From Chitinophaga sancti (GTDB lineage Bacteria > Bacteroidota > Bacteroidia > Chitinophagales > Chitinophagaceae), in contig NZ_CP139247.1 of the NCBI RefSeq assembly GCF_034087045.1, positions 6,660,001 through 6,724,000 of the forward strand: a stretch of 64,000 bases of DNA, in the 5' to 3' direction. Below the pieces are notes generated by a model. It had not been told where the DNA came from. It saw only the letters and a program-made list of their open reading frames with translations, and did no database searches. Both the position numbers and the translations under genes were made by a program. Shown here piece by piece: positions 37,473 to 42,644 of this stretch (position 1 is its first letter; the number at the start of each line of letters is the position of its first letter).

Positions 37473-37920
37473 TGTCTGGCAGCTGTACCAATAATGCACA
37501 CAACTGTGCAGTAAGGTCCACACCTGGATTCCCCAAAATTGGTAAAACACAGCAGCACGGGTATGCAAATCGCCTTTGCCGGAATAATTTTTTCTACCAT
37601 CGGGGGTGGCAATTAAATACAAAATTGCATATGCCACAGCCAGCCAACATTTATTAAATCGCTCTATGGTGGCTGTATCTAAATATTCCGTGATGACTAA
37701 AAATACAAACATGCGATCCGCTCTGTAGTATTTATTGATGAGATTTTTGATTTATTCGTGTGGAATCCAATATTCCCATATCAATTAGCATGCCTATTGC
37801 TATGTACATGAATTACGCGAACAAAATAAAAATGACACCGCAACGAACTTATAACTGTTAACTATTAGGATTGGCAGTGCTATAAATAATATCTACATTT
37901 AAATTTTCTAAACATCAACA
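37473..37920. other. Intergenic upstream of the stressosome cluster
   Basis: About 450 bp of A/T-rich sequence after the catalase relic. Open frames on either strand have no recognisable similarity. No TAnnTTTG box was found before the RsbR-like gene. The further gap 37045-37158, before the Oar-like gene, also holds nothing recognised. Confidence 0.4.
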
Positions 37921-38790
37921 ATGGCAACAGACATAGCGAAGCTGCTTCAGAAGAAGCAGAAAAAGATTCTGGAAAACTGGATGACCGCTCAGCTTTCCAA
38001 CGTCAGCCTTAGGGAAGACCTAATGAGTAACGAGGACCTTAGAGAACAATCTACTGAACTATTAGAGACACTTTTAAAAGTATTATCTGAGAAAAATCTC
38101 AACAATTTTGAATCTACTGAATTTGAACCTGTTCATGAACTCCTGGCCGGGGTATCTCTTTCCCGTGCTCAACAAGGATTTACCCCTTCCGAAACTGGTG
38201 TTTACATATTTAGTCTGAAAGATGCCCTGCTATCAACCTTACTCACTGATTTGAAGGATGATCCGGCTACCCTGGTAGATGGTGTGATCAGAATAGGTAA
38301 GCTGATGGACTATCTCAGTGTAGTAGCGTTTGAAACTTTTATCAAGGGAAGAGAAGAAGTTATTCTGCGTCAGACAGATGAGATTGCAGAAATCTCCACT
38401 CCTGTGATCCGTGTATGGGATGGTATTCTCGCCCTGCCTATTATTGGCACCCTGGATAGTGCCCGTACGCAGGTAGTAATGGAGAGCCTATTGCAGGAAA
38501 TTGTGGAAAGTGGCAGTACAATTGCCATACTGGATATTTCAGGTGTGGCTGCTGTAGACTCACTGGTAGCACAGCACCTGATCAAAACTGTTGCGGCTAC
38601 CCGTCTGATGGGTGCAGAGTGTATCATTAGCGGTATCCGTCCGGAAATAGCGCAAACAGTGGTTCACCTGGGTATTGATCTTTCCAATATTATTACCAAG
38701 GCAACACTCGCCAGTGCGCTTAAACAGGCGTTTGGTATGTTGAGACTGAGTGTGAAAAAATTGGAATTCACAAATAAAACAGGCAATTAA
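37921..38790 (+). CDS. RsbR-like stressosome sensor/scaffold (RsbRD-type N-terminus plus STAS)
   Basis: RsbR proteins build the stressosome core with RsbS and hold back the switch kinase RsbT. This 289-residue protein has a helical N-terminal domain (about 1-150, KKQKKILENWMTAQLSNVSL) like the RsbRD_N group, with no heme or flavin motif. A C-terminal STAS domain follows (about 160-275) with GIRPEIAQTVVHLGIDLSNI, nearly identical in style to B. subtilis RsbR. Ser214 in AAVDSLVAQ and Thr246 in EIAQT correspond to the two threonines phosphorylated by RsbT; the first is Ser here. It is the first gene of a six-gene rightward cluster and is followed by the RsbS-like gene after 3 bp. Confidence 0.9.
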   Translation: MATDIAKLLQKKQKKILENWMTAQLSNVSLREDLMSNEDLREQSTELLETLLKVLSEKNLNNFESTEFEPVHELLAGVSLSRAQQGFTPSETGVYIFSLKDALLSTLLTDLKDDPATLVDGVIRIGKLMDYLSVVAFETFIKGREEVILRQTDEIAEISTPVIRVWDGILALPIIGTLDSARTQVVMESLLQEIVESGSTIAILDISGVAAVDSLVAQHLIKTVAATRLMGAECIISGIRPEIAQTVVHLGIDLSNIITKATLASALKQAFGMLRLSVKKLEFTNKTGN

Positions 38791-38793
38791 TAT

Positions 38794-39195
38794 ATGGATC
38801 GTATTCCTATACTTCGTATGGGGAACCTGTTACTGGTGACCATACAGATAGATCTGTACGACAGGTTAGCGACCAATCTGGAGACAGATCTGGTACAAAT
38901 GGTAAATAAAACCGAAGCGAAAGGTGTATTAATTGATATCTCCGCATTATCCATCGTCGATTCTTTTATGGGCCGTATTCTTGGTAACATTGGTTCTATG
39001 TCCAAAATTATGGATGCCGAAACCGTTGTTGTTGGTATGCAGCCAGCGGTCGCTATTACCCTGATTGAACTTGGGTTGGAACTCAGGGGCGTACATACGG
39101 CTTTGAATGTAGAAAAGGGAATGGAATTGTTAAAGGAAAAAATTGGTAATTATGAAGACGACCTAACAGAAGACGATGAAGATAGTACTGAATAA
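38794..39195 (+). CDS. RsbS-like STAS protein (stressosome core)
   Basis: A 133-residue single-STAS protein, the antagonist that binds the switch kinase. The phosphorylation site is Ser57 in ISALSIVDSFMGRI, matching the RsbS serine in a DSFxGR context. GMQPAVAITLIELGLELRGV is the conserved second half. The C-terminus carries an acidic tail (EDDLTEDDEDSTE) beyond the usual RsbS end; it lies over the start of the next gene, with a 20-bp overlap. Expected role: with RsbR it traps RsbT until phosphorylated. Confidence 0.92.
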   Translation: MDRIPILRMGNLLLVTIQIDLYDRLATNLETDLVQMVNKTEAKGVLIDISALSIVDSFMGRILGNIGSMSKIMDAETVVVGMQPAVAITLIELGLELRGVHTALNVEKGMELLKEKIGNYEDDLTEDDEDSTE

Positions 39196-39589
39196 GGACC
39201 GTATGCTAATCGAAAGAGAACAGGATGTGGTTCCATTCAGGAATCGTGTGAAGGAGTATGCTGTGAAAATTGGAATGAGTCTTGTGAATCAAACCAAACT
39301 GATCACCGCAGCCAGTGAACTTGTCCGCAATATGCTGAAATATGCCAATGGTGGAATTGTGTTGATTGAGGTACTCACCCAGGGCAGAGATAGTGGGATC
39401 CGGCTTGTCTTTACCGACAAAGGTCCGGGAATTAAAGATATCCCACTGGCTATGCAAGATGGCTATTCCTCCGGCAAAAGCCTGGGGATTGGCCTACCCG
39501 GTACCAAACGGCTGGTCAATGAATTTGAAATCAAAAGTATAGTCGGCGAAGGCACGACTGTTACAATTATTAAGTGGAAGAATGGATAA
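39176..39589 (+). CDS. RsbT-like switch serine kinase
   Basis: A 137-residue GHKL-fold kinase expected to phosphorylate the RsbR- and RsbS-like STAS proteins and then leave the stressosome to activate a downstream partner. The N box is ASELVRNMLKYA (Asn52), the G1 box DKGPGI (residues 81-86), and the G2 box GKSLGIGLPGTKRL. All nucleotide-binding elements look intact. It overlaps both neighbours (20 bp and 8 bp), suggesting coupled translation. In Bacillus the partner is the phosphatase RsbU; no RsbU, RsbV, RsbW or SigB gene is seen here. Confidence 0.92.
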   Translation: MKIVLNKDRMLIEREQDVVPFRNRVKEYAVKIGMSLVNQTKLITAASELVRNMLKYANGGIVLIEVLTQGRDSGIRLVFTDKGPGIKDIPLAMQDGYSSGKSLGIGLPGTKRLVNEFEIKSIVGEGTTVTIIKWKNG

Positions 39590-40589
39590 AAACATACACC
39601 TGGCGCTCAACGCATCTGAGCGAAGCTATTTTGCCATATTAAAAAAAGAAATCCATGCCATGGCAATCGCTGGCGGACTTTCTGAAAAGCGGGTTGCAGA
39701 GATAGATATTATTGTGGCGGAAATAGTAACCAATCTTGTCAAACATGCAGGTGGTGGTCAGGTACTGGCTAAACTCATCGAGGAAAACGGCGAACAAGGC
39801 ATAGAACTGATCAGTATTGACAACGGCCCCGGTATGACGGATGTAACCCGGATGGTAGCAGACGGTGTATCTACAAAAAAAACACTGGGGAATGGTCTGG
39901 GTGCCATGAAAAGGCTCTCCGATGTATTCCAGATCTATTCTAATAAGAACTGGGGCACCGTCATCCTGATCAGGGTTTTCAATAAGCCACCAGCCAAAGC
40001 CTTTAAAACAGAGATCAGATCCGTAATCATTCCTAAACCAGGTGAAACTGAAAGCGGAGATAATTTGTACTCTATAGTAGACAATAACCATGTGAAATTA
40101 TTCCTGGGAGATGGTCTGGGCCATGGCCCCGAAGCGGCGAAAGCCATGCGGGTAGCCGGAGAAGCATTTATGGCATGCAATCATACTGACCCCGTAGAAA
40201 TCATCAGGTATATTAACCTGGCTGTGAAAAGAACAAGGGGAATGGTAGGTACTGTCGCAGTTTTTGACCATCCCGCCAGGAAATGGCGCATTTGCGGAGT
40301 GGGAAATATTATCACAAAAGTGTTCAATCCGGAGAGCAATAAAAGCTACCTGGCGTACAATGGTATTATTGGGCTCAATGTTCCCAATACACTCAATGTC
40401 CAGGAAATTCCTTACGAAGATGGTCAGTATATCCTGATGTCCAGCGATGGTCTCAAAACCCGATGGGATACTTCAAAGTATACATCCATAACGCGATTCG
40501 ATCTTTCTATTCTATGCGCGTCTCTCATTAAAGACTTTGCACGCCTCACAGACGATATGTCGGTAGTGGCGTGCAAAATAAACTTGTAA
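39582..40589 (+). CDS. Fusion of RsbT-like ATPase domain and RsbX/SpoIIE-type PP2C phosphatase
   Basis: A 335-residue two-domain protein. Residues 1-140 form a second GHKL domain with N box AEIVTNLVKHA (Asn51), G1 box DNGPGM (80-85) and G2 box TLGNGLGAMKRL. Residues about 145-335 are a PP2C serine phosphatase with metal-binding motifs LFLGDGLGHGPEAAKAM and DDMSVVACKI near the end. RsbX-type phosphatases reset the stressosome by dephosphorylating RsbR and RsbS, so kinase-like and phosphatase domains in one chain could switch in both directions. It overlaps the RsbT-like gene by 8 bp and is followed by the kinase gene after 4 bp. Confidence 0.9.
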   Translation: MDKNIHLALNASERSYFAILKKEIHAMAIAGGLSEKRVAEIDIIVAEIVTNLVKHAGGGQVLAKLIEENGEQGIELISIDNGPGMTDVTRMVADGVSTKKTLGNGLGAMKRLSDVFQIYSNKNWGTVILIRVFNKPPAKAFKTEIRSVIIPKPGETESGDNLYSIVDNNHVKLFLGDGLGHGPEAAKAMRVAGEAFMACNHTDPVEIIRYINLAVKRTRGMVGTVAVFDHPARKWRICGVGNIITKVFNPESNKSYLAYNGIIGLNVPNTLNVQEIPYEDGQYILMSSDGLKTRWDTSKYTSITRFDLSILCASLIKDFARLTDDMSVVACKINL

Positions 40590-40593
40590 TCTC

Positions 40594-42225
40594 ATGCACG
40601 AACTTGCCCGGGTGACCCTTGAGAATGAAATGGATCTCATACTTGCGCATAAGCGCTCTATGAAACTGGCAGAACTGGCCGGTCTCTCCCTGTCGGCACA
40701 AACAACTTTTGCTACTGCCGTGTCCGAGGTGTCAAGAAACGCCATCGACAGCGGCAAAAGTGGTTGTCTCATTTTAAGCGTAGAAAGCGATCTGCGTGAA
40801 AAATTCATCGTGGCCTGCCTGAAAAATGAGCAGCAAAACAACGCCCGGGAAGGTCTTGAACATGCAAAAAAACTCGTTAATAAATATAAAGTTTCTACAA
40901 ATGGTCCGGAGACCAGCATAGAACTGTTCTATACCATCTCTCCCGCTTTCCGCATAGATATACAAAAGCTGGATGAGTGGCGGAGCCTCTTTCGCAATGA
41001 ACCTTCCATCTCCCCTTACGAGGAACTGAAAAGGAAGAATGAACAGCTGCAGGAACTGTCGGAAAGAGTGAAGAAAAGTGAAGACCAGTACAAAGTGCTC
41101 ACCAATTCTCTCCCGCTTATGATCTTCTCACTCGACGATCACGGGCAACTGCTCTATGCCAATTACTGGCTGTTACACTACACAGGTCAAAACCTGAATA
41201 GTCTCAACAACAGTAAATGGAAAACCATCGTGCATGAAGATGATTATGACGCTTTTTGTCTGCTGTTGCAAAATGATATTACACGGGGTGCCACCACCAT
41301 CAAGATACAGGCAAGGCTGATGAACAAAAGTACCAGCGATTATCTCTGGCACCAGATCTCACTGTCACCACTCAATGGAGATAAAGACGAGCCCAGTTAC
41401 CGTATCGGGTTTATGGTAGACATCCATGCGCAGAAAACGGTAGAAGAAACACTGAAAGATAATTATGAATTAAAGCAGGCGGAAAAGAAACTGAAAGATA
41501 ACCAGCATACACTGGAACAGTATATTGAAGAACTGAACCGCAGTAACCAGGAGCTACAGCAATTTGCTTTTGTCGCGTCTCATGATCTGCAGGAGCCGGT
41601 ACGAAAATTGTTATTTTATAGTGACTACCTGCTGAATAAATACCAGGCTTCTTTTGACGAGAAAAGCCTGCATTTCCTGAACAGCATACAGGGCGCTTCC
41701 CGCAGAATGCGATCGTTGATACAGGACCTGTTACTCTTCTCACAAATCAATAAAGAACAGATTCAGTTCCAGGAAGTTGACCTGAATGCGGTAGCGACAG
41801 ATGCCTGCCAGGACCTGGAAATAGCTATTGAAGAAAAGAAGGCTGCACTCAATATTCATTCACTGCCAAAACTCTATTGTGACGAAAGAATGATGCGGCA
41901 GCTGTTTGGCAATATCATCAGCAATTCATTGAAGTATAGCAAGGATGCCCAGGCACCGCAGGTAGATATTTCTTACAAGCAGGAGAACGGGCATATAGAA
42001 CTTATATTCAGGGACAACGGGATTGGATTTGATGAAAAATACCTGCCTAAAATGTTCACCCTCTTTCAGCGCTTACATACGCGACAGACGTATGAAGGCA
42101 CAGGATTGGGACTGGCCATATGCAGGAAGATCGTAGAAATGCACCAGGGTAAAATATGGGCGACCTCAGAAGAGGGATCAGGTGCAACTTTTTTCGTTTC
42201 TTTGCCTACACATCCGGTTATTTAA
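40594..42225 (+). CDS. Histidine kinase with degenerate RsbT-like N-terminus and PAS domain
   Basis: A 543-residue cytoplasmic sensor kinase without membrane segments. Residues 1-115 resemble the RsbT/RsbW fold: an N-box-like TFATAVSEVSRNAID is kept but no G1 or G2 ATP-binding motif is seen. A PAS domain follows (about 163-280, LLYANYWLLHYTGQNL) and then a coiled coil (280-325). The HisKA domain has the phospho-accepting His330 in FVASHDLQEPVRK, and the HATPase has NIISNSLKYS, DNGIGF and GTGLGLAICRKI. The N-terminal part may be the docking surface for STAS proteins, making this the output of the stressosome. A response regulator gene follows 11 bp later. Confidence 0.9.
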   Translation: MHELARVTLENEMDLILAHKRSMKLAELAGLSLSAQTTFATAVSEVSRNAIDSGKSGCLILSVESDLREKFIVACLKNEQQNNAREGLEHAKKLVNKYKVSTNGPETSIELFYTISPAFRIDIQKLDEWRSLFRNEPSISPYEELKRKNEQLQELSERVKKSEDQYKVLTNSLPLMIFSLDDHGQLLYANYWLLHYTGQNLNSLNNSKWKTIVHEDDYDAFCLLLQNDITRGATTIKIQARLMNKSTSDYLWHQISLSPLNGDKDEPSYRIGFMVDIHAQKTVEETLKDNYELKQAEKKLKDNQHTLEQYIEELNRSNQELQQFAFVASHDLQEPVRKLLFYSDYLLNKYQASFDEKSLHFLNSIQGASRRMRSLIQDLLLFSQINKEQIQFQEVDLNAVATDACQDLEIAIEEKKAALNIHSLPKLYCDERMMRQLFGNIISNSLKYSKDAQAPQVDISYKQENGHIELIFRDNGIGFDEKYLPKMFTLFQRLHTRQTYEGTGLGLAICRKIVEMHQGKIWATSEEGSGATFFVSLPTHPVI

Positions 42226-42236
42226 TTGCTTGCTTT

Positions 42237-42644
42237 ATGAAATGTGGAAAAATACTGGTTATTGACGACGACTCTGAAGATATGGTTATTATCAGAGAAG
42301 CCATGGAAATGATCAATGCTGATAATGTGATGATGTTTGCCGAAGGTGGCGAAAAGGCCCTGCAATTGCTGGAAACGCGCTTTAGCGCAGAACAGGTAGT
42401 TCCTTGTCTGATTGTACTGGACCTGAACATGCCAAAAATGAACGGTACACAGACACTGGCAAACCTGAAGGCAGATGACCGCTTCAGGAATATTCCTGTT
42501 ATCATCTACTCTACCTCTATCAATCCTTTTGAAAAAGCGAAATGTGTCACCTTAGGTGCACATGCATATATTACCAAACCTGTATCTGTCAAAGAAAGCC
42601 TGGAAACAGCGCAGGTGTTTCTGAATTTCTGCCAGGCAGATTGA
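42237..42644 (+). CDS. Single-domain response regulator (REC only)
   Basis: A 135-residue CheY-like receiver with no output domain. The acidic pocket is IDDDSEDM, the phospho-acceptor Asp62 is in VLDLNMPKMNG, the Ser/Thr switch is in VIIYSTS, and Lys114 lies in YITKPVSVKE. This is the Rcp1-like group often paired with PAS histidine kinases. The frame is open back to 42156, but the ATG at 42237 starts the normal REC fold. As the last gene of the cluster it is the likely phosphate acceptor of the upstream kinase; what it contacts is not encoded here. Confidence 0.93.
   Translation: MKCGKILVIDDDSEDMVIIREAMEMINADNVMMFAEGGEKALQLLETRFSAEQVVPCLIVLDLNMPKMNGTQTLANLKADDRFRNIPVIIYSTSINPFEKAKCVTLGAHAYITKPVSVKESLETAQVFLNFCQAD

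Follow-up and report, generated by a model that had tools for sequence, protein, structure and literature searches.

A degenerate RsbT-like domain at the N-terminus of a stressosome-linked histidine kinase in Chitinophaga sancti

The genome of Chitinophaga sancti (assembly GCF_034087045.1; one contig, 8,320,843 bases, 99.93% complete) carries a six-gene cluster for the stressosome proteins RsbR, RsbS and RsbT, a fusion of RsbT-like and RsbX-like parts (TX), a PAS histidine kinase and a response regulator consisting of a REC domain only. We analysed this cluster within a stretch of 64,000 nucleotides (contig NZ_CP139247.1, positions 6,660,001 to 6,724,000 of the forward strand), which we call the window. 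We found that the N-terminus of the kinase, a region that we call HKn, is detectably homologous to RsbT and lacks its ATP boxes. Judging from sequence comparison, we consider it rather probable that the histidine kinase is the output of the stressosome and that it docks through this RsbT-derived domain, probably on RsbS/RsbR and possibly on RsbT.

Residues 1-139 of the kinase match no Pfam domain even at E 1. Profile comparison with hhalign aligned kinase residues 7-111 with RsbT (probability 95, E 3.2e-8; on repetition E 1.8e-8 and a score of 53.2), against control scores of 9.7-13.6 for six column shuffles of RsbT, 16.9 for reversed RsbT, 11.5 for RsbS and 14.2 for the ATPase domain of the kinase itself, the last of which led us to reject the idea that HKn is a copy of that domain. 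A search of the whole genome with an RsbT profile (E <=1e-3) found three places, all of them in this operon: RsbT (271.5 bits), the N-terminal part of TX (TX-N, 69.6 bits) and HKn (24.9 bits). Furthermore, a profile of 122 N-terminal RsbT-like domains matched the window kinase at amino acids (aa) 4-74 with 48.2 bits and matched none of the N-termini of nine control kinases (five with RsbU_N, four others).

By reading of the alignment, the G1 and G2 nucleotide boxes of an active kinase are missing from HKn in all 14 rows. Of 1393 HKn proteins, the best 120 include 10 with a DxGxG string within aa 1-150 and 1 with GxG[LIMF] there; judged from the row of locus L003, we read such a string (DSGKG) near residue 52 as probably preceding the true G1 site. 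Across 40 loci, conservation is 0.77 for aa 1-50 of HKn, 0.42 for aa 51-118 and 0.75 for the exit linker at aa 138-150; the two parts of RsbT score 0.81 and 0.80. Such a pattern would suit a binding part with no further need of ATP. The kinase proper has intact H, N and G boxes, as a HisKA histidine kinase should, and no RsbU_N domain was found in it with Pfam at E up to 1, which sets it apart from output kinases of the RsbU_N type. The linker at aa 138-165 may form a coiled coil, and in the alignment its first part is kept in both of the kinds of kinase described below.

The six open reading frames (ORFs) of the cluster lie at 37921-42644, all on the + strand, with consecutive gaps of 3, -20, -8, 4 and 11 base pairs (bp); ORFs and Pfam both confirm the genes, order and gaps described in a first-pass annotation of the letters alone. 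In gene order, Pfam assigned RsbRD_N and STAS; STAS; HATPase_c/HATPase_c_2; HATPase_c_2 and SpoIIE PP2C; PAS, HisKA and HATPase_c; and Response_reg, the PAS models in the window kinase scoring under their Pfam cut-offs. The features, in window coordinates, are:

37921..38790, + strand: RsbR, with an RsbRD_N sensor at aa 5-107 (Pfam E 2e-27) and STAS at aa 161-265 (E 2.2e-14)
38794..39195, + strand: RsbS, a lone STAS domain (Pfam E 5.2e-7) with candidate phospho-site Ser57
39176..39589, + strand: RsbT switch kinase, HATPase_c E 1.1e-10, overlapping RsbS by 20 bp
39582..40589, + strand: TX, RsbT-RsbX fusion, with an RsbT-like ATPase at aa 20-130 and a PP2C phosphatase at aa 168-333 (Pfam)
40594..42225, + strand: PAS histidine kinase, with HisKA at aa 321-386 (H box SHDLQEP) and HATPase_c at aa 430-539 (Pfam)
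40594..40947, + strand: HKn, spanning about aa 1-118 of the kinase, an RsbT-like domain in degenerate form (hhalign and profiles)
41005..41088, + strand: polar, helix-like linker from HKn to PAS/HisKA, aa 138-165, conserved in the alignment
42237..42644, + strand: REC-only response regulator, Response_reg E 1e-18, an optional member of the cluster

For the REC gene, the start at 42237 is more likely than the longest-ORF start at 42156. A Bacteroidota-type promoter pattern matched the window 3 times against 2.2 expected, never before rsbR. A general promoter scan of the window (18 vs 12.0 expected) and a terminator scan (6 vs 4.5 expected) were not clear of chance; one match of the former lies at 37871-37899 before rsbR, and one of the latter (42628-42640) falls on the end of the REC gene.

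The stressosome core is that of an RsbRST module, with adjacent genes for an RsbR of sensor and STAS domain, an RsbS of a lone STAS domain and a GHKL-type RsbT. The candidate phospho-sites that had been judged intact in the first-pass annotation are indeed conserved: RsbR Ser214 and Thr246 do not vary across 15 rows and align with Thr209 and Thr241 of RsbR chains in solved stressosomes (matches to E 2.1e-40), and RsbS Ser57 is invariant in 14 rows and aligns with Ser56 of the RsbS chains (matches to E 1.5e-36). Among the solved chains displayed, Ala takes the place of Thr209 in one RsbR chain and of Ser56 in one RsbS chain. The N, G1 and G2 motifs of RsbT, also taken to be intact, are invariant in 14 rows, and RsbT matches SpoIIAB structures (E 1.5e-6). 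Judged from sequence, RsbR and RsbS would make up the STAS scaffold, and RsbT would be the active switch kinase. In TX, both the ATP motifs and the PP2C motifs are invariant (13 rows), the latter with residues that we take to be metal-binding. Its SpoIIE PP2C is that of an RsbX-type feedback phosphatase, fused here to an RsbT-like domain; the 'GHKL-PP2C fusion' of the first-pass annotation is better identified as an RsbT-RsbX fusion.

Queried with the N-terminal part of the kinase, named genomes yielded 14 loci in Chitinophaga and other Bacteroidota, the nearest in [Flexibacter] sp. ATCC 35208 (97%). The rsbT gene overlaps that for TX by 8 bp in 14 of 14 loci and rsbS overlaps rsbT by 20 bp in 11 of 13, start codons having been picked nearest the alignment, which favours agreement. 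The six-gene arrangement is more than chance. In a family sample searched with an RsbS profile, and hence independently of HKn, RsbS was found in 21 of 195 genomes and HKn in every one of these; a 22nd family genome with HKn (G531, 76% complete) has it on a contig of 5,829 bases that starts inside rsbT. Of 395 genomes sampled across the phylum, 14 have RsbS at E 1e-10, and the 8 with E <1e-60 are the same 8 that have a strong HKn match; three more weak HKn matches are, by position, RsbT itself (G200, G377) and an RsbT-kinase fusion (G188). HKn starts 1402-1490 bp past RsbS in 28 genomes, that of the window included.

The 40 loci compared are the window, the 14 loci above (which were found with HKn and hence are not independent evidence) and further sets of 7 and 18; L056, L059 and L075 were dropped as copies of L014, L010 and L011, and L002 is nearly identical to the window's own locus. 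Genes for RsbT and TX precede the kinase in 40 of 40, and the full order RsbR, RsbS, RsbT, TX was seen in 39, L011 being cut by a contig end. The kinase, which the first-pass annotation had named as apparent output, is thus linked to the stressosome genes in 21 of 21 RsbS-bearing family genomes and in all 40 loci, and the gene-order search in Bacteroidota that it had proposed does not find the kinase usually unlinked from them. The joint output of kinase and REC protein that it had also envisaged is not a fixed unit: REC is downstream in 22 loci and missing in 18, being present in 22 of the 31 with long kinases (544-603 aa frames) and in none of the nine with short ones (397-426 aa). Four short kinases examined with Pfam have HisKA and HATPase_c and no PAS. 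In the 36 loci used for comparing kinase bodies (L002, L005, L006 and L011 were excluded), the distance is 0.74 between the long and short kinds vs 0.50 and 0.60 within them; RsbT and RsbS hardly differ. Mirror-tree correlations of HKn with four partners range from 0.59 to 0.85, TX being highest, and do not single out a docking partner. Some loci have features of their own: an extra rsbR-rsbS-rsbT set adjoins the full cluster upstream in Sediminibacterium roseum (L006:3604-5267), a second rsbR does so in Flavisolibacter ginsengisoli (L014:1706-2557), and a metagenome-assembled genome has a stop inside the TX frame (L005:6762-7775), which may be a sequencing error.

Within the phylum sample, RsbT was matched at E <1e-25 in 16 of the 395 genomes, which fall into two wirings that do not overlap in the genomes sampled (Fisher p 9e-5, ancestry uncorrected). 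Nine genomes (the 8 with HKn, and G188) have TX and an RsbT-like kinase and no RsbU_N; the other seven lack TX and have, immediately after RsbT, RsbU_N above cut-off together with a kinase. Both wirings occur in one family, f17 (G188 vs G035 and G082). In G188 an intact RsbT domain forms part of a HisKA kinase, and REC comes next. In the five RsbU_N loci in which RsbR and RsbS were found (L050-L054), the kinase is RsbU_N-PAS-HisKA_3 and RsbX is a lone PP2C by profile, confirmed with Pfam in one locus (L050); scored on whole proteins, RsbU_N is above cut-off in four and reaches 25.0 vs 25.5 in L052. A REC-LuxR regulator then follows in L051 and L052, the two such loci scanned. HKn occupies the position that RsbU_N, to which free RsbT is known to bind, has in other stressosome-linked kinases. 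In G377 and G211 (L078, L079), RsbT stands beside an RsbU_N protein of about 600 aa, with no RsbR, RsbS or RsbX by profile. Six further phylum genomes (G047, G172, G180, G228, G337, G347) matched the RsbT profile weakly (E 1e-10 to 1e-14), and G009, where RsbT was not found at E 1e-8, has a sub-threshold RsbU_N match.

A tree of 74 domains places HKn with RsbT-kinase fusions and separates it from RsbT and TX-N; support is 0.979 for the HKn clade, and the split between the two groups has local support of 0.98 and 0.56 on the two edges beside the midpoint root. Descent of HKn from an RsbT-kinase fusion is most likely on this evidence, with long branches as a caution. With the G188 kinase as query, 17 proteins were found; each has HATPase_c_2, HisKA and HATPase_c, one is 97% identical to the region used as query, and G1 is kept in all 18, query included. 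P0137, which the tree draws beside HKn, gave 144 matches among the 8000 candidates scored; DxGxG lies within the first 200 residues in 109 of the 120 matches listed, whose names include Massilia, Ramlibacter, Rhodoplanes, Azospirillaceae, Longimicrobiaceae, Thermoanaerobaculia and Limnocylindrales, among others. Eight of these 120 (P0234, P0235, P0244, P0250, P0252, P0253, P0254, P0255) combine Sigma-70 region 2 with an RsbT-like HATPase_c_2; in P0234, P0244 and P0254 Pfam places the RsbT-like domain C-terminally and finds region 4 as well. Were such proteins encoded within stressosome operons, they would be fusions of RsbT with a sigma-like factor; a search of plasmids for RsbT-sigma fusions at E 1e-20 found none. 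P0214 is a PP2C phosphatase with a C-terminal RsbT-like domain, the reverse of the order in TX.

The wiring is not confined to Bacteroidota: Deinococcus radiodurans has it too, and so, with less consistency, do proteobacteria and actinomycetes. Plasmid MP1 of D. radiodurans R1 encodes RsbR, RsbS, RsbT, TX, an RsbT-HisKA-HATPase-REC protein and then REC-HisKA-HATPase, and the order is the same in Deinococcus sp. KNUC1210 and Caballeronia sp. M1242; these three loci were found with an RsbT-kinase query and are biased to that extent. An RsbT search of plasmids gave 45 records, of which 10 were retrieved for inspection. TX is present in nine of the ten, and the gene after it has an RsbT-like start at E <1e-8 in four, at E 0.0097-0.1 in three and none in two, so that an RsbT-like kinase after TX is frequent and not universal. 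In Streptomyces sp. Mg1 the gene after TX encodes a SpoIIE-type phosphatase with G1 missing. The Caballeronia and Nonomuraea kinases lack G1 too, so that the ATP site was apparently lost more than once. On a plasmid of Paraburkholderia aromaticivorans (L095), the RsbT-HisKA protein has 338 aa and no C-terminal ATPase, with a kinase-like match in the next frame.

No sigma factor of the SigB/F/G type was found above the model cut-off in the C. sancti genome. As SigB-type targets elsewhere in the genome, the best candidates were rejected at 117 and 112 bits vs a cut-off of 234; they are frames of 296 and 289 aa, which we take to be housekeeping-type sigma factors. RsbU_N has no match in the genome, and the only SpoIIE-type phosphatase is TX. 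Of the four STAS places two are RsbR and RsbS, and we read the others as a SulP-like transporter and a lone STAS protein. The latter (L077:2326-2700) has a Pfam STAS match just above cut-off, no anti-sigma gene among the ORFs listed around it, and a neighbour that we read as RNase Z-like. The 21 places with HATPase_c_2 include no frame of RsbW size (the smallest has 282 aa), in a search that missed RsbT itself; the RsbV/RsbW pair is likely absent from the genome, the STAS_2 family not having been searched. Thus we found no SigB partner-switching operon, that is RsbU with RsbU_N, RsbV/RsbW and a SigB-type sigma factor. The first-pass annotation, which had noted the lack of a sigma factor and of RsbU/V/W, is upheld for the SigB-type factor, with no conserved SigB-like target of RsbT found elsewhere in the genome, and for RsbU_N; for RsbV/RsbW, absence is likely and not proven.

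How might the stressosome control the kinase? We suggest that HKn, having no ATP boxes, is the docking part of an output kinase that would be held on the RsbS/RsbR scaffold in the manner of RsbT. Phosphorylation of RsbS Ser57 (and of RsbR) by RsbT would release the kinase, the freed HKn would alter the helical linker and hence the kinase, and TX would reset the scaffold; where its gene is present, the REC protein would be the likely phospho-acceptor. The docking partner, the direction of control and the flow of phosphate in this scheme are our inferences. Direct docking on RsbS/RsbR would explain why RsbX carries an RsbT-like domain too. The earlier proposal that RsbT or the STAS proteins act on the kinase holds as regards the tie between kinase and stressosome; since HKn is RsbT-derived, the link reads as docking rather than as phosphorylation by RsbT.

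Several observations weigh against docking of the kinase through HKn. The assignment of a GHKL fold, which HKn looks like having, comes from profiles: a search of solved structures with HKn gave no match at E up to 10, Pfam touched HATPase_c_2 in the HKn region in 2 of 14 family rows, the window row not among them, and of four full HKn kinases one (P0110) had an N-terminal HATPase_c_2, below cut-off. The hhalign match of HKn to TX-N is weak (score 21.6, probability 4.6). Linkage of RsbS and HKn in the family (Fisher p 3e-27), like the 21 of 21 behind it, is uncorrected for ancestry. Beyond the phylum, the gene after TX in three Streptomyces operons has an RsbT-like start at E 0.0097-0.1 only, and in two Variovorax operons (L094, L098) the kinase has no RsbT-like N-terminus and, in L098, no RsbU_N either; another coupling must exist in these two R-S-T-TX operons. 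Furthermore, D92, marked at the contact of RsbT with the RsbU linker (PMC12143880), falls in the half of RsbT that is not conserved in HKn, and conservation fails to separate docking on RsbS/RsbR from pairing with RsbT.

In such a pairing, HKn would be the receptor for released RsbT, the two joining much as SpoIIAB-type proteins dimerise and so ordering the linker, and HKn would be a functional stand-in for RsbU_N instead of a client of the scaffold. This would recall B. subtilis, where RsbT that has left the stressosome switches RsbU on by bringing order to a linker coiled coil (PMC12143880). HKn is placed where RsbU_N sits in the other wiring, and conservation in HKn is concentrated in the N-terminal half, the part of RsbT with R19, R23 and N24, residues implicated in RsbU binding (PMC12143880); in Vibrio, the autophosphorylated helix of RsbT is predicted to have a role in dimerisation and sigma binding and to lie near the SpoIIAA site (PMC4976288). 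We nevertheless regard this reading as rather unlikely: the like domain on TX, and related ones on other PP2C and sigma-like proteins, fit a shared client of the scaffold better, and intact RsbT-kinase fusions would seem not to require a second RsbT. It is improbable that RsbT phosphorylates the kinase, for example on Ser/Thr, with HKn as substrate or remnant. Heinz et al. proposed phosphorylation of a partner by RsbT for Vibrio (PMC9237108), but that proposal concerned partners without RsbU_N, whereas the kinase here has an RsbT-derived domain whose conservation is that of a domain and not of a short phospho-site. Least of all do we expect kinase and REC to be passengers, co-transcribed with the stressosome genes yet independent of them. 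The absence of REC from 18 of the 40 loci and the two kinds of kinase body would suit such an operon, but HKn is RsbT-derived and retained across both kinds, and every strong HKn match, of which the phylum sample had 8 and the family sample 22, lay in an rsb cluster when retrieved.

Two-component outputs have been described for stressosome modules of the RSTX type, and the groups for which Heinz et al. (2022, PMC9237108) list such modules include Bacteroidetes. The C. sancti cluster resembles the Vibrio-type rsbRSTX operon in its RSTX core, the lack of a sigma factor and downstream signalling genes usually a few bp away. It differs from it in that Vibrio has a single-PP2C RsbX, an RsbR with a globin and a downstream protein with RsbU_N or no recognised docking domain, whereas here RsbX and the kinase each have an RsbT-like domain. 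According to Heinz et al., RsbU_N is absent from most of the downstream proteins considered, those of Vibrio vulnificus included, and an interaction of RsbT with its partner could not be demonstrated. The RsbU_N-kinases of stressosome operons (Heinz 2022; Baral 2025, PMC12143880) are likewise histidine kinase outputs with an N-terminal input domain, but here an RsbT-like domain replaces RsbU_N, HisKA stands in place of the HisKA_3 of L050-L054, and the partner is REC-only or lacking rather than the REC-LuxR of L051 and L052. Closest in gene order is the D. radiodurans MP1 operon (DR_RS15570-DR_RS15595, L087), with R, S, T, RsbT-RsbX and RsbT-HisKA-HATPase; its kinase differs in retaining G1 in the RsbT domain and in being a hybrid with its own REC, and a REC-HisKA-HATPase protein follows. 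The B. subtilis sigB operon (rsbRSTUVW-sigB-rsbX) has counterparts of RsbR, RsbS, RsbT and RsbX, but here no RsbU, RsbW or SigB-type sigma was found and the output is a kinase.

Exchange of input domains between phosphatases and kinases has been proposed, with RsbU_N-kinases in Proteobacteria as a cited case (PMC12143880); the available portion of that paper does not mention RsbT-kinase fusions. In what could be seen of the open PubMed Central literature, subscription papers being outside its reach, there is no account of such fusions or of a degenerate RsbT domain on a kinase. PMC7358398 cites the 2005 Pane-Farre paper on RsbRST modules for stressosomes in the Bacteroides and Deinococcus groups, and that paper may already describe these downstream genes.

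A wider reading, which we offer tentatively and as one joint claim, is that the RsbT fold is a portable and often catalytically dead docking tag. In one of the two wirings, free RsbT would then not be the mobile messenger; that role would fall to the tagged effectors (RsbX phosphatase, histidine kinase, hybrid kinase, RsbU-like phosphatase and perhaps sigma-like factors), which the STAS scaffold would capture and release directly, and the tag would have replaced RsbU_N and decayed to a pseudo-enzyme more than once. If true, this would be a clear example of an active kinase domain put to new use as a dead docking part. As regards signal output from stressosomes without a sigma factor, the conserved RsbT-derived domain on the kinase offers a direct and testable link. 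Furthermore, this domain splits stressosomes into two wirings, and it reaches Deinococcus radiodurans, an organism tractable in the laboratory.

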